52,624 bases of DNA from Nanoarchaeota archaeon (GTDB lineage Archaea > EX4484-52 > LFW-46), in the NCBI GenBank assembly GCA_018897155.1, contig JAHILE010000024.1, positions 1 through 52,624 on the forward strand, read 5' to 3'. The translations under genes were made by a program, and so were the position numbers. The number at the start of each line of letters is the position of its first letter. The stretch's first letter is position 1. Positions 17,276-43,367 of the stretch are shown in pieces. The notes under the pieces were generated by a model. That model ran no database searches and was not told the DNA's origin. It saw nothing but the letters and a program-made list of their open reading frames with translations.

Positions 17276-17349
17276 ATCATCTCGTTTGCTGCTCGCAAAC
17301 TCGAAGCTTTTGAGGGCTCCAACCTCAAAAAGCTTGGCGCAAAATGCCA
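17276..17349 (-). repeat. Dispersed hairpin repeat, copy D
   Basis: On the minus strand this reads: a TTTTGAGG/CCTCAAAA hairpin, then AAGCTTCGAG, then a TTTGC/GCAAA hairpin, then CGAGATGAT. It lies between the start of the GT2 gene and the end of the radical SAM gene. The last hairpin is TTCGC/GCGAA in copy B, so both sides of the stem changed together, which argues that the folded form matters. Confidence 0.65.
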
Positions 17350-17390: not shown

Positions 17391-18815
17391 TTATTTCAGA
17401 TGCTTGACAAACGTCGCGCCTGCCTTGATTATCCGCGCCATTTCCTTTGGATTTTTCACTCCCTGGACAAGCTTTCCTGCAATATATTTTGGCCGCAGGT
17501 AAAACTGCCTTCGCGCCTTATTGCAAATCTTAACAAGCTCGGCTCCGCTCAATCCGGGTCTGTCAACAACGCAATTATGCAACCCCTCAGGAGTCAGCCA
17601 TTTTGAATAATCTTCTGTTGTAAGATACCCTTTTGCTTTTGCGCGCTTGTAATCCTCAGTTATCGGATAAACCATGAGCGGATAAAACTGTGCAGTATCC
17701 GGATGCAGTTCCTTTGAAAAATCAATAGTCTCCTGTATGCTTTCTTTTGTGTCGCTGTCAAGGCCCAAAACAAAGCAGCCATTAACAAGAAGCCCTGCGC
17801 GTCTTGCATTGTTCATGAACTCAAGCTGCATATCTCTCGTGGTCCTTTTATGTATTGATTCGAGCACCCTTGCGTTCGGGCTTTCAAAGCCAACGCACAT
17901 GAGCCTGCATCCTGCGGATTTCATCACATTAAGTGTTTCCATGTCAGTATTTACGCGCGCGTTGCACGACCACTTGATTTTTATGCCGCGCTTTTTCATA
18001 AGCTCGCAAAGCTCAATAGTCCTTTGCTTGACTGCGGGAAATGTCTCATCCTCAAACATGATTTCCTTAACTTCTGGCAGTTCTTTCTGGATGTATTCAA
18101 GCTCTTTGACAACATTTTCAATAGAGCGCGAGCGGTATGATCCCTTAAAAGGGCTGTTGCAAAAACTGCATGAATAAGGGCATCCGCGCGCGGTAAGTAT
18201 TGTCACTTGCGGAAAAGTCAGCGATGCGTAGAAATAATCGCGCACATTCAGGTGCTTCTTGTAAACTTCAGAGACAAACGGCAGCTCGTCAAGATTTTTG
18301 ATTAATTCGCGCGGCAGATTATCAACAATTTTTTTGCCGCTCGCAAAGCTCAGCCCTGCAACGCTGTCAAGCTTTTTCCCCGCTTCAAGGGCTTTTGCAA
18401 GGTCTCTTACAGTGTAATCATATTCGCTGCAACAGACAGAATCGATTTTGCCAAGCGCAATAGTCTCGTGCGGCATCGCAGTAGGGTGCGTTCCGACAAG
18501 ATTTATGTGAGCCGTTGGCACTGCCTCTTTTATTGCATCTGCAACAGCCACATCATTATAGATGCTTGGCGTGCTTGTGTCAATCACAACAAGAGCGGGA
18601 TTCTCGCGCTTTGCAAGTTCCATGACTTGATCGCGCGACATATTCTTTGCAACGGCATCGATGAGCAACACGTCAAAACCTTCTTTTTCAAGAACGCCCA
18701 CCATATACGATAAGAAGTAAGGCATGTATAATGTTCCGCTCTTTGTAACACAGGGAGAGCGCGATTGTCTCGAAAACCCTTTAATATAAGGTGGATTTAC
18801 TGCCAATATTTTCAT
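17391..18815 (-). CDS. B12-binding-domain radical SAM protein
   Basis: The N-terminal half is a cobalamin-binding-type Rossmann domain (ILAVNPPYIKGF, VLLIDAVAKNM, NLVGTHPTAMPHE). The radical SAM motif is CPYSCSFC (Cys212, Cys216, Cys219). SFASGKKIVDNLPRELIKNLDELPF is the linker typical of the class. The DxHxxG motif is absent (DAVAK in its place). The start codon overlaps the stop of the upstream homing endonuclease gene as ATGA. The substrate is unknown. Related genes in archaeal glycan loci suggest lipid or sugar methylation. Confidence 0.85.
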   Translation of the reverse strand: MKILAVNPPYIKGFSRQSRSPCVTKSGTLYMPYFLSYMVGVLEKEGFDVLLIDAVAKNMSRDQVMELAKRENPALVVIDTSTPSIYNDVAVADAIKEAVPTAHINLVGTHPTAMPHETIALGKIDSVCCSEYDYTVRDLAKALEAGKKLDSVAGLSFASGKKIVDNLPRELIKNLDELPFVSEVYKKHLNVRDYFYASLTFPQVTILTARGCPYSCSFCNSPFKGSYRSRSIENVVKELEYIQKELPEVKEIMFEDETFPAVKQRTIELCELMKKRGIKIKWSCNARVNTDMETLNVMKSAGCRLMCVGFESPNARVLESIHKRTTRDMQLEFMNNARRAGLLVNGCFVLGLDSDTKESIQETIDFSKELHPDTAQFYPLMVYPITEDYKRAKAKGYLTTEDYSKWLTPEGLHNCVVDRPGLSGAELVKICNKARRQFYLRPKYIAGKLVQGVKNPKEMARIIKAGATFVKHLK

Positions 18816-19957
18816 ATTTGACCCCTCAACTTCTTTGTTTCTTGTGTTGTTCTTCGCGGGATGTTGAGTTTTTTCATAATTTTTATGATCCCTGCATGGC
18901 TATAACTAAGTTTTTTACCAATCTCTGAGATGGTTAAGCACTCATCATGATACATTTTTTTTATAGCCCCCCCCATTTCCCTAAGTTTTTCTAATTTCTC
19001 CTTCTCTCTTATTTCTCGCCTTTTCCTTCTCCATGCCCGCTTATATTCATTCTTTTCCTTGCGAGATAATGTTATTCTGTCTTTATTTCCTTCCCATAAT
19101 GCACCCAGTTTATAAAACACGCAATTTGGGACCCCATATTTTTCGAAAATTACCTTAAAAATTGCTAAAAGTTTTTTAGAGTCAGTACTATTAAATTTAA
19201 TATAATATGTATTGTTCCTTCTGCATATTTTTGGGTTTACATTCCATTTTTTTATGAACCAGTCTTTTATTATGGTGTGTTCTATATAGGTAAACGAATC
19301 GGTGGAAAAATTTACTAAATTTTCTAATATTGTGACGTGTCCATCATCTAGATACCATACTGCTAGACCTAGTTCATTTATTTGGTCTAAAATCTCCGAG
19401 GTTATTCTTTTTTTTCTATCAAAATAAAATATTTTATGATACTCGCTTAGTAAAGGAAGTGAAGATGTTTTAATTATGACTTGGGGGTATTTCTTGTTTA
19501 ATTTATAATTCATATATTCTTTATCCTTTAACTTACACCCGAAAATTTTCAGGATCTTGTCTTTCCATATTAAGTAGTCTCTTTGTTTTGATGAGTGCGT
19601 TTCCTCAAGATAATAATTTGTTCCATTACCGTGTGATAAGCTACCATCCCCTAATAAACTACCCAAAAGCACCTGCTTGCAATCTTCAGTAAACAATATA
19701 TCCAAATATTCAGGATTCTTATTTAAGTTTGCCAGAGATATTTTTAGTTTCGTTTGTTCTGAACGGGGCTTTCCGTAGAACGGATGGTTTTTACCGCTCA
19801 TTGCTTTCGACATCTTCTGTTTTGTTTCTTCGGATCGTTTTTTGCCTGTTTTAGACTCTGCGATTTTTCTTACTCGTTTGTCTGTTTCCTTTGTCAAACC
19901 TCTATTCCAAGGGATGTTGCTTTTCCTCGTAAAATCATCATTGTTCTGGTCTTTCAT
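18812..19957 (-). CDS. Free-standing LAGLIDADG homing endonuclease with NUMOD3 repeats and a C-terminal HTH
   Basis: Residues 14-75 hold NUMOD3-type DNA-binding modules (GKKRSEETKQKMSKA, GKNHPFYGKPRSEQTKLKIS). Two LAGLIDADG motifs follow at 97-105 (LLGSLLGDG) and 197-206 (LGLAVWYLDDG), each with the catalytic acidic residue. The C-terminal 45 residues form a helix-turn-helix (LTISEIGKKLSYSHAGIIKIMKKL). NUMOD3 is usually found with GIY-YIG enzymes. No intron or intein surrounds the gene, so it is free-standing and is probably a selfish mobile gene that cuts and copies itself into an empty site. It is more AT-rich than its neighbours. Its stop overlaps the next gene's ATG. Confidence 0.87.
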   Translation of the reverse strand: MKDQNNDDFTRKSNIPWNRGLTKETDKRVRKIAESKTGKKRSEETKQKMSKAMSGKNHPFYGKPRSEQTKLKISLANLNKNPEYLDILFTEDCKQVLLGSLLGDGSLSHGNGTNYYLEETHSSKQRDYLIWKDKILKIFGCKLKDKEYMNYKLNKKYPQVIIKTSSLPLLSEYHKIFYFDRKKRITSEILDQINELGLAVWYLDDGHVTILENLVNFSTDSFTYIEHTIIKDWFIKKWNVNPKICRRNNTYYIKFNSTDSKKLLAIFKVIFEKYGVPNCVFYKLGALWEGNKDRITLSRKEKNEYKRAWRRKRREIREKEKLEKLREMGGAIKKMYHDECLTISEIGKKLSYSHAGIIKIMKKLNIPRRTTQETKKLRGQI

Positions 19958-35461: not shown

Positions 35462-35662
35462 CGCTGGGAGTGAGATTTTCAGTTTCTTTCTCTTTTGTAA
35501 AAGAGAAAGACAAATCTGGGTAGAAAGAGAAAACCGCCGACCTCGACTTCGTCGAGGGCGAAATAAGGATTTAGTTCTCCATTCAGCCAGAAACATTTGA
35601 ACTCACGAGGGCAGAACCCACTAGCTTAGCAGGCTAGCGCCATACCACTAGGCGATCCCAGC
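35462..35662 (-). tRNA. tRNA-Ser (anticodon GCU) interrupted by a T-loop intron
   Basis: The 5' exon is 35662-35596 and the 3' exon 35475-35462. The acceptor stem GCTGGGA/TCCCAGC pairs fully, the D stem is GCC/GGC, and the anticodon stem CTAGC/GCTAG encloses the loop CTGCTAA (anticodon GCT). A variable arm with GGG/CCC marks a class II serine tRNA. The T stem is GTGAG/CTCAC and the discriminator is G. CCA is not encoded. The mature tRNA has 81 bases before CCA. The T-loop TTCAAAT is split after its sixth base (between positions 59 and 60) by 120 bases. The perfect stems on both sides rule out a decayed gene. Confidence 0.95.
35476..35595 (-). other. Archaeal tRNA intron (120 bases) with a canonical bulge-helix-bulge
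   Basis: On the minus strand the T stem GTGAG/CTCAC is followed by a 4-bp central helix TTCA/TGAA, two 3-base bulges (AAT and AAT) and an intron helix GTTTC/GAAAC. That is the full hBHBh layout cut by the archaeal splicing endonuclease. Cutting after the second bulge base on each side restores TTCAAA plus T, a normal T-loop. Inside the intron are an 11-bp stem (35485-35495 with 35500-35510) and a 7-bp stem CCTCGAC/GTCGAGG over TTC (35541-35557). No reading frame is seen in the intron. Confidence 0.92.
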
Positions 35663-41290: not shown

Positions 41291-42439
41291 TCAATATGTT
41301 TTTTTATCGGATTTTTCCAAATCTTCTGCATCAATTAGATTAAACTCTACTTTACTTTGAATCATGATCTCATGAATAATCGACTTTAGATACCCGTTCT
41401 TAATCGCAATGTCAAGACAGTCCATCAATTTTGGAATGTTTACAACTTCCTCTATACAATCCATGTACTTTTTCACGATTGCCTTCACAGAATATATTTC
41501 TTCTGCGTTTTCTTCCATTTTTTGTAATAATACATCAACTTTACTTTCGGATTTTATTACAAATGTAATCGGATATCTTTCGATCTTATCTATATCCAAC
41601 AAAAATTTATGCACATCCGTTGTTTCTGTAACTTGAAAGAACCTACCAAGCGGTTTCATAACGAAATCTATTCCACCATCATTAGCGTTAGTTCTTCCAG
41701 TTTTATACAAAACTAAATTTTGTTTTTTAAGATTGCTCAAATTAAATCCAAAATATATGATTTGATCGTGATAATAATACTTCAAAATACTGTAACTTGC
41801 AATCTCAAAAAGTCTTGCATCAACATTGGGTGCTAATAAACCCTTGATGAAAATAATCGCTTTCCCGTTTTCTGCTCCTTCCAATTGAATAATCTCCTCA
41901 CATGATTTGATAAAACTTTCAAAGGATGACTGTTTTGCAGCCATGTAATTATCAATGATTTTAATAACGGTTTCAGCAATATTGATCTTTTCTTTCCCAC
42001 TAGAAACAATAAGGAGCTTTTCATTAAACCAATAACGACGTGTTGTAACATCGCTAATTATCGGAGGATATTTAGCTGCGGGAAAATATTTTTTAAATTC
42101 TCCATTTAATCTATTATTGAATGCGTGATTTTGTAACTTTTGACCAAAGGGTAATTCTCTTTGCCGCCTGAATAAATCCGTGAATATTGCCCCTTCATAG
42201 TCTTTATAACCTCCATTTTTATGAAAGTCATTTTTAAGGTAGTCCTCTACTAAAACATAAATTACATAAATGTTAGCAAAACTACTCCTTGATTTAGAAC
42301 CACTATGTGCTGATCGTGTTTTAATATTCAAATACTGAATCAGAAGAGATTTATCGAAGATATCCTCATAGGCCTCCCCAAAATCTTCTTTTAAAATTGC
42401 AATAATTTTCTCCGTAAATGAATTAGATTTATTGACCAT
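41291..42439 (-). CDS. Probable type II restriction endonuclease (PD-(D/E)XK-like)
   Basis: The 382-residue protein overlaps the end of a DNA methyltransferase gene by 11 bases, as expected for its cognate nuclease. A possible catalytic core is TNANDGGIDFVMKPLGRFFQVTETT (about 245-270), where Asp, Asp and Gln-x-Thr could be a variant of the PD-(D/E)XK strand pair. I do not recognise the enzyme family or its target site. The ATG at 42439 lies six bases after AGGTG; a GTG at 42448 is the alternative. It converges with acnX, leaving only four bases between the two stop codons. The coding sequence is AT-rich. Confidence 0.68.
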   Translation of the reverse strand: MVNKSNSFTEKIIAILKEDFGEAYEDIFDKSLLIQYLNIKTRSAHSGSKSRSSFANIYVIYVLVEDYLKNDFHKNGGYKDYEGAIFTDLFRRQRELPFGQKLQNHAFNNRLNGEFKKYFPAAKYPPIISDVTTRRYWFNEKLLIVSSGKEKINIAETVIKIIDNYMAAKQSSFESFIKSCEEIIQLEGAENGKAIIFIKGLLAPNVDARLFEIASYSILKYYYHDQIIYFGFNLSNLKKQNLVLYKTGRTNANDGGIDFVMKPLGRFFQVTETTDVHKFLLDIDKIERYPITFVIKSESKVDVLLQKMEENAEEIYSVKAIVKKYMDCIEEVVNIPKLMDCLDIAIKNGYLKSIIHEIMIQSKVEFNLIDAEDLEKSDKKTY

Positions 42440-43367
42440 GAAGCACACCTAATTTTTGTTGTTTTTGGTTATTATTTATAGATTTATTAATATTTTGAAG
42501 TCGATTAACACCCGTTTCAAAATAATCTTTGTCTAATTCTATACCAATTGATTTTCTGTTTAATTTCATAGCAACAGCAGATGTGGTGAACGTTCCTGAA
42601 AATGGATCTAACACAACATCACCAACGTTACTACTTGCTAAAATGATCCTATTTAATAAAGATTCCGGTTTTTGCGATGGATGTGTTTCATATTCGGACA
42701 TTTTAAAACGAACTCTTGGAAAATACCACACATTACCCGGAACTTTTTTGCTGTTATAGATTGTCGGTATCGATTTTCTATAATCGATTAATTTTCGTTT
42801 TGCGCCGGTTTTTGCCTCCACAAGTATATCTTTAGAATTAAATACATAATCACCCTTACCTTTGACTGCAAAAATAATTGGTTCGTATAATGAACCATAG
42901 AACTTCTTTGCTTGAACTCCCGAACTATCATAATGCCAAATAATTCGTGCAAGAATATCCATTTTTTTCCTTAAATATGTGTCAAAATAAGGCATAAATT
43001 GAGTTGCACCCATCAAATACATAGAACCATTATCTTTTAGCTTTTGAATACATAAATCAATCCACTCGTAGCACCATGACATATATTTTTCATCGTTTTC
43101 CCATTTATCTTTATATCCATTAAAATTTTTCCCGATATTATACGGCGGATCCACAAATATCAAATTAACAGAATTATCTGGTATCGTTCTTAAAATTTTG
43201 AGCGCATCACCCCTCATTAAGTTATGACCGTTTAACTCAAAAAAATTTAGAACATTCGTTGTTTGATTCAATACATCATTATGTTTTTCGATTTGTTGGA
43301 TCGAAATATTTGCAGTATTAAAATTAAACGTTTGTCTATTTTCCTGAAAAGATAAAGAATCATTCAT
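42429..43367 (-). CDS. Site-specific DNA methyltransferase (adenine-N6 type, beta class order)
   Basis: DPPYNIG at 73-79 is catalytic motif IV, found before the SAM-binding motif DPFSGTFTTSAVA at 254. That order defines the beta class. HPSQKPESLLNRII and IGIELDKDYF are also typical. DPPY points to adenine-N6 methylation. It would protect the host DNA from the nuclease encoded just downstream. Between it and the TBP-like gene lies a palindromic TATA-like sequence, GTTATATAAC at 43407-43416, about 40 bases ahead of its start codon. Confidence 0.9.
   Translation of the reverse strand: MNDSLSFQENRQTFNFNTANISIQQIEKHNDVLNQTTNVLNFFELNGHNLMRGDALKILRTIPDNSVNLIFVDPPYNIGKNFNGYKDKWENDEKYMSWCYEWIDLCIQKLKDNGSMYLMGATQFMPYFDTYLRKKMDILARIIWHYDSSGVQAKKFYGSLYEPIIFAVKGKGDYVFNSKDILVEAKTGAKRKLIDYRKSIPTIYNSKKVPGNVWYFPRVRFKMSEYETHPSQKPESLLNRIILASSNVGDVVLDPFSGTFTTSAVAMKLNRKSIGIELDKDYFETGVNRLQNINKSINNNQKQQKLGVLHGQ

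Follow-up and report, generated by a model that had tools for sequence, protein, structure and literature searches.

A T-loop intron in the tRNA-Ser(GCU) gene of an EX4484-52 archaeon is very probably an inverted copy of a small mobile element

How might an archaeon make tRNA-Ser(GCU) when the one gene found for it is split by 120 bases inside the T-loop, and where did those bases come from? Archaeal tRNA introns that form a bulge-helix-bulge (BHB) motif occur at non-canonical positions, including 59/60, and have been reported as concentrated in Crenarchaeota, Thaumarchaeota and Nanoarchaeota (PMC4090602, PMC8450103, PMC3218864). In crenarchaea, T-loop introns at 59/60 and the transposition of introns between tRNA genes are both known; the mechanism of archaeal tRNA intron gain has been described as unknown (PMC4090602).

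The locus studied here lies in a contig of 52,624 nucleotides (JAHILE010000024.1, assembly GCA_018897155.1; hereafter the window). The sister species, LFW-46 (genome G001), belongs to the same genus. LFW-46 has been placed in the DPANN phylum EX4484-52, sister to Nanohaloarchaeota, and was reported with 18 tRNA types, introns being unmentioned (PMC8561730). We consider it very likely that the only tRNA-Ser(GCU) gene found in the window's genome is interrupted at 59/60, in a BHB, by a flipped copy of a mobile element restricted to one family.

Results

The minus strand of the window from 35662 to 35462 encodes a tRNA-Ser(GCU) that is complete only once 120 bases between T-loop positions 59 and 60 are removed. 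On that strand, the 5' exon (35596-35662) holds tRNA positions 1-59, the intron occupies 35476-35595, and the 3' exon (35462-35475) supplies T60, the 3' strands of the T and acceptor stems, and G73; CCA is not encoded. The gene reads GCTGGGA, T, C, GCC...GGC, anticodon arm, variable arm, GTGAG-TTCAAA, 120 bases, T-CTCAC-TCCCAGC-G. Pairing is complete in the acceptor stem (GCTGGGA/TCCCAGC, 7/7) and the T stem (GTGAG/CTCAC, 5/5). The anticodon stem CTAGC/GCTAG carries the loop CTGCTAA (anticodon GCU), the variable arm is long (GGG/CCC), and the discriminator base is G73. With the predicted exon junction GTGAGTTCAAATCTCAC, the minimum free energy fold of the spliced 81-mer is a perfect cloverleaf (-35.6 kcal/mol).

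At the joints, TTCA (T-loop 54-57; 35598-35601, minus strand) pairs with TGAA near the intron 3' end (35478-35481, minus strand) to form the central helix, which is flanked by bulges AAT and AAT, with a predicted cut at AA|T on both sides, and then by GTTTC/GAAAC. A finder that demanded acceptor, T-stem and central-helix pairing returned exactly this gene, with an intron of 120 bases and four of four central pairs. ARAGORN reported no tRNA in the window and missed the gene, and the Rfam tRNA model matched its 5' part alone (35585-35662, the first 78 bases; 30.7 bits). The intron matched no Rfam family.

Is this a textbook BHB, as originally claimed? The TTCA/TGAA helix and the two AAT bulges stand. 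The intron-side helix was slightly overstated: in the unconstrained fold of the unspliced transcript, the T stem and TTCA/TGAA form and GTTTC/GAAAC does not, and forcing the textbook BHB gives -68.7 against -73.1, a cost of 4.4 kcal/mol. The sister species, however, has a different yet complementary inner helix at this place (CGGTTT/AAACCG), and because complementarity is kept while the sequence differs, the BHB reading is supported.

The orthologous tRNA-Ser(GCU) of the sister species (G001:C29:16732-16929) is similarly interrupted. The exons are identical at 80/81 bases; the introns are identical at 97 of 131 aligned columns. Moreover, T-loop base 57 covaries with the intron: across T-loop introns, the opposing intron base is C in 4/4 TTCG loops and in 1/28 TTCA loops (Fisher p=1.4e-4). 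Since the exons are conserved over a diverged intron and base 57 covaries with it, the intron is not a chance reading. The original prediction of a 120-base BHB intron at 59/60 was thus confirmed in sequence and pairing, and we looked, without finding one, for the intact tRNA-Ser(GCU) elsewhere in the genome that would have spoken against it.

Genome-wide statements here come from covariance and BLAST searches of draft genomes. The tRNA sets were pieced together from such searches, so genes may be missed, and anticodons in genes with several introns were assigned by eye. Within this scope, searches of the draft assembly of the window's genome found no second tRNA-Ser(GCU) gene. About 10 kb from the interrupted gene, the window encodes aTrm56, the 2'-O-methyltransferase of tRNA T-loop C56 (45814-46338, plus strand).

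Does the intron have relatives? By BLAST it matches other places in its own and the sister genome, most of which are introns of other tRNA genes, and nearly all of the tRNA matches lie at T-loop 59/60 with a TTCR/YGAA helix. A core covariance model (R2) finds 26 copies scoring at least 48 bits in the two genomes: 18 lie in tRNA T-loops, 1 in an anticodon loop and 7 outside tRNA genes. The tRNA genes of the window's genome with an element-type intron in the T-loop are Ser-GCU, Ala-CGC, Ile-GAU, Thr-GGU, Asp-GUC, Pro-GGG, Pro-CGG and Leu-GAG; short T-loop introns (20-45 nt) interrupt Arg-CCU, Gln-CUG, Leu-CAA, Arg-UCG and Glu-CUC, and at least 13 tRNA genes there have T-loop introns. The sister genome carries the element in ten T-loops and, in tRNA-Ser(CGA) (G001:C65:33271-33460), in the anticodon loop at 37/38. 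The window's genome has a Ser(CGA) orthologue whose anticodon loop is interrupted by a different intron. Homologous introns are thus found in unrelated tRNA genes, in hosts of several isotypes and at two positions. Among 32 T-loop introns, all four central pairs are present in 28; the other four lack at least one, including Ile-GAU, which has an A-C mismatch.

The Ser(GCU) copy differs from its relatives in orientation. The full covariance model (R1) matches the plus strand of the window at 35478-35586, opposite to the tRNA, with 61 bits (E 2.8e-12) against 19.6 bits, from a short match, on the tRNA strand; R2 gives 52.6 against 28.5. The sister's Ser-GCU copy is inverted likewise. We ruled out other tRNAs carrying the element antisense, all others being sense. 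What the original prediction overlooked is that, judged by homology, the intron is an inverted copy of a dispersed mobile element family. The simplest history is probably an inversion in place, between the inverted repeats of the closing helix, before the species split, because YGAA-AAT keeps its place at the 3' joint. A target-site duplication, as AAT at both bulges might suggest, was not adopted: the intron-side bulge bases vary (AAT, AAA, AAC, ATT).

Eight un-nested introns gave a consensus fold with a three-way junction, in which a closing helix P1 holds a hairpin P2 and a helix P3 that encloses a hairpin P4; 15/34 of its pairs show changes on both sides. The element is about 110 bp long, has near-terminal palindromes (P2 and P4) and lacks coding capacity. 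P2 (TCTTTCTCTTTT / AAAAGAGAAAGA; 35485-35510, plus strand) is a 12-pair helix supported by covariation: over 25 copies, 97% of cells are paired, with 53 double changes against 18 in shuffles and 0/500 shuffles reaching the observed value. P4 (CCTCGAC TTC GTCGAGG; 35541-35557, plus strand) shows compensatory changes. The original prediction was also right about extra stem-loops inside the intron.

After P2 follows a purine tract (AGAAAGAGAAAA; 35522-35533, plus strand) that exactly mirrors the 3' arm of P2 and is a possible triplex strand. For four sequence types, the best example of each shows an exact mirror (14/14, 13/13, 13/13 and 14/14), in a test that used one example per type; several copies have a mismatch. 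Among 24 possible assignments of the tract, mirror symmetry ranks 1 and Watson-Crick pairing with the P2 5' arm ranks 3; we rejected the latter as fitting less well. The mirror tract would fit an intramolecular triplex, which we offer as a hypothesis only; for the inverted Ser intron this would hypothetically make the tract, as RNA, the pyrimidine strand, lying parallel to the purine arm.

Another dispersed family consists of two hairpins linked by AAGCTT. It is nested inside element introns at six loci and also lies in intergenic DNA; it occurs near 17304 and 35337 of the window as well.

The seven copies outside tRNA genes share one address. Each is in sense orientation and begins immediately 3' of a TAA stop codon, as TAA-T-N-C, and none was found elsewhere. 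Three lie in the window's genome (G000 C35:2775, C23:4881 and C6:1443) and four in the sister genome (G001 C13:6463, C18:1648, C63:95 and C48:11667). Their hosts encode TFB, AtpF, deoxyhypusine synthase, rpS15, an M48 protease (HtpX-like) and two unknown proteins. Orthologues without the element end at the same residue in TFB (TGA), rpS15 (TAA) and the two unknown genes (TAG, TAA). The rpS15 copy alone ends GGTGAAAT; most stop-codon copies lack the intron 3' end. An AAT-type target alone does not predict this pattern, because only about 8/99 intergenic TAAT sites in the window (~8%) are stop codons, and 7/7 would arise by chance with a probability of ~2e-8. These copies also rule out tandem duplication of tRNA genes as the source of the family.

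Has the element moved recently? Positions filled in both species are Ser-GCU, Ala-CGC, Asp-GUC, Pro-GGG and Pro-CGG. The window's genome has the element in Ile-GAU and Leu-GAG, whose sites are empty in the sister (for Ile-GAU, GGGAGTTCAAATCTCCC); conversely, Pro-UGG and Ser-GGA are empty in the window's genome and filled in the sister. In the sister, Thr-GGU has an unrelated T-loop intron of 41 nt. From these orthologous empty and filled sites, at four tRNAs and four genes, we infer that the element has probably moved recently.

Running R1 over 34 genomes of phylum EX4484-52 gave strong matches in only two genomes of one GTDB family and none in the 32 other genomes, where the best match had E = 0.003. 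Two exact core patterns had no match in the viral collection IMG/VR, and a virus origin was accordingly rejected. Six genomes, drawn from two other EX4484-52 families, have short introns of 24-58 nt at T-loop 59/60 of Ser-GCU, where the helix reads TTCA/TGAA or TTCA/TGGA; Ser-GCU is intact in most other genomes of the phylum that were examined. Introns at this site had originally been described as known mainly from Thermoproteales. They are not confined to that group, since Ser(GCU) of two other EX4484-52 families has shorter introns there, and the window's genome alone has T-loop introns in 13 or more of its tRNA genes.

Two further loci of the window deserve mention. On the minus strand, 18812-19957 holds a free-standing LAGLIDADG_2 homing endonuclease with a NUMOD3 motif, in a 4-base overlap with the next, radical-SAM-like open reading frame. 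At 41291-43367, also on the minus strand, an N6/N4 DNA methylase lies beside a 385-aa protein without a Pfam match, a possible restriction-modification pair.

Discussion

We propose that the T stem and the invariant T-loop TTCR would pair with YGAA at the intron 3' end, and that EndA would then cut within the two 3-nt bulges. Ligation of the exons (by RtcB in archaea) would restore a normal T-loop and release a 120-nt intron. The T-loop would suit insertion well because half of the splice motif, TTCR, is present in every tRNA beforehand; a copy that brings YGAA would be removed from the RNA. On this proposal, the non-coding element of about 110 bp, whose hairpins P2 and P4 belong to a three-way junction that P1 and P3 close, would have spread in one GTDB family.

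Can the host splice such introns? The genome encodes one EndA, of 285 aa (PF02778+PF01974), whose N and C domains are those of the a4 type. The BHB, together with essential tRNAs found only in interrupted form, suggests that this single EndA splices the introns. Asp-GUC, needed for Asp codons, was found in interrupted form only in both species; if the tRNA sets are complete, splicing must therefore work. Smooth splicing is called into question by a predicted BHB 4.4 kcal/mol above the free fold, by the incomplete central helix of 4/32 introns and by a plain a4-like EndA. The a4 enzymes are connected mainly with strict BHB substrates, and in the ARMAN-specific loop Tyr160-Lys161 is needed for activity on diverse substrates (PMC12397907). 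At the site of that loop, the EndA found here has a slightly longer loop (GKWIDEEKV) than Methanocaldococcus jannaschii EndA; the Tyr-Lys pair is not evident.

How does the element move? Our leading guess, held with a little less than even confidence, is that it is a palindrome-associated type of non-autonomous element (PATE) with subterminal hairpins, moved in trans through single-stranded DNA by an IS200/IS605 Y1 transposase that inserts it 3' of a short AAT-like target without target duplication. The genome has three IS200-type Y1_Tnp genes. The palindromes near the element's ends and its lack of coding capacity fit, as does the nested insertion of other small repeats, which has been described for PATEs (PMC3119063). 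No clear target duplication was seen, but AAT at both bulges leaves the empty sites ambiguous on this point. On the other hand, neither element-like ends nor an R2 match was found beside the three Y1 genes, and the closing inverted repeat of the tRNA copies is no PATE feature. AAT is too common to explain the exclusive use of stop codons and T-loops, and a DNA transposase gives no reason for the seven non-tRNA copies all to begin at a stop codon.

The stop-codon copies are what a second, rather unlikely route would explain. Here RtcB would join the excised intron, with 5'-OH and 2',3'-cyclic phosphate ends, either into another tRNA loop that had been cut or to an mRNA cleaved at the stop codon, and a copy back into DNA would follow. 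The start of every non-tRNA copy, TAA|T N C..., coincides with the intron start at the 5' splice site; all seven are sense, chance is a poor account of their placement, and the empty tRNA sites are clean. Against this, a search of both genomes found no reverse transcriptase family (PF00078), the intron's 3' end is missing from most stop-codon copies, and a retro-copy requires a further recombination step. The broader idea that targets are set at the RNA level (T-loops, and the codon that a ribosome has just read at termination), that the element spreads as excised intron and that splicing hides the tRNA copies from selection strikes us as doubtful.

Alternatively, perhaps the core is kept because intron and element are a functional RNA, such as a guide, a protein-binding RNA or a 3'-end signal, with the stop-codon copies serving as 3' UTR elements? 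The core AGACAARTCYGGGTA is conserved beyond pairing across two diverged species, an exact mirror purine tract is kept in four sequence types, and the mRNA copies are all sense and immediately 3' of a stop codon. However, the host genes have no common function, orthologues manage without the element, Rfam holds nothing like the intron, and the Ser copy would be transcribed antisense. We regard this explanation, too, as improbable.

It is much harder still to maintain that the introns are old and vertically inherited, alike through tRNA gene duplication or gene conversion rather than mobility. Several positions are indeed common to both species, but the host isotypes are unrelated, the element also lies in the Ser-CGA anticodon loop of G001 and behind stop codons, orthologous genes differ in its presence, and the rest of the phylum lacks strong matches. 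Finally, that the Ser(GCU) copy is disabled and a normal gene sits in a gap of an assembly ~96% complete is scarcely credible, given that both species have this gene interrupted alike, in a shared neighbourhood and with nearly identical exons.

Insertion of a mobile element remains our reading, and it matters in two respects. Recent gains with matched empty sites, an inverted copy and stop-codon copies make DNA and RNA routes experimentally separable. The results also suggest that DPANN tRNA sets are under-called: LFW-46 was reported with its 18 types, and some standard tools miss T-loop-interrupted genes.

How does this case compare with known systems? As in other archaeal BHB introns, removal leaves a well-paired tRNA, the motif has a 4-bp helix and 3-nt bulges, and the genome encodes EndA. 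The 59/60 site and the occurrence of multiple introns per gene are likewise shared with non-canonical BHB introns; here, in contrast, the lineage is phylum EX4484-52 and the intron is long, structured and inverted. Transposable tRNA introns of the Thermoproteales type likewise recur as homologues at more than one position and in tRNA genes unrelated to each other. The present family differs in lineage, in lying also behind stop codons, in its one inverted copy and three-way-junction fold, and in its empty sites in a sister species.

With the PATEs and small mobile repeats of Haloquadratum (PMC3119063), the element shares its short, non-coding form, near-terminal palindromes, nested smaller repeats and strain- or species-specific insertions. 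We do not file it as a PATE: the shared IS605-type ends were not found here, its hosts are spliceable tRNA loops and stop codons, and its tRNA copies should be removable from RNA. Intron gain by integration in Caldiarchaeum tRNA-Thr(GGU) (PMC3293823) offers the same presence and absence in natural relatives and the same link to mobile elements, but that model invokes an integrase attachment site and larger elements, whereas the element here is of ~110 bp. As far as our search of the open-access literature shows, the DPANN lineage, the stop-codon copies, the inverted copy, the fold with its mirror tract and the matched empty sites are new.
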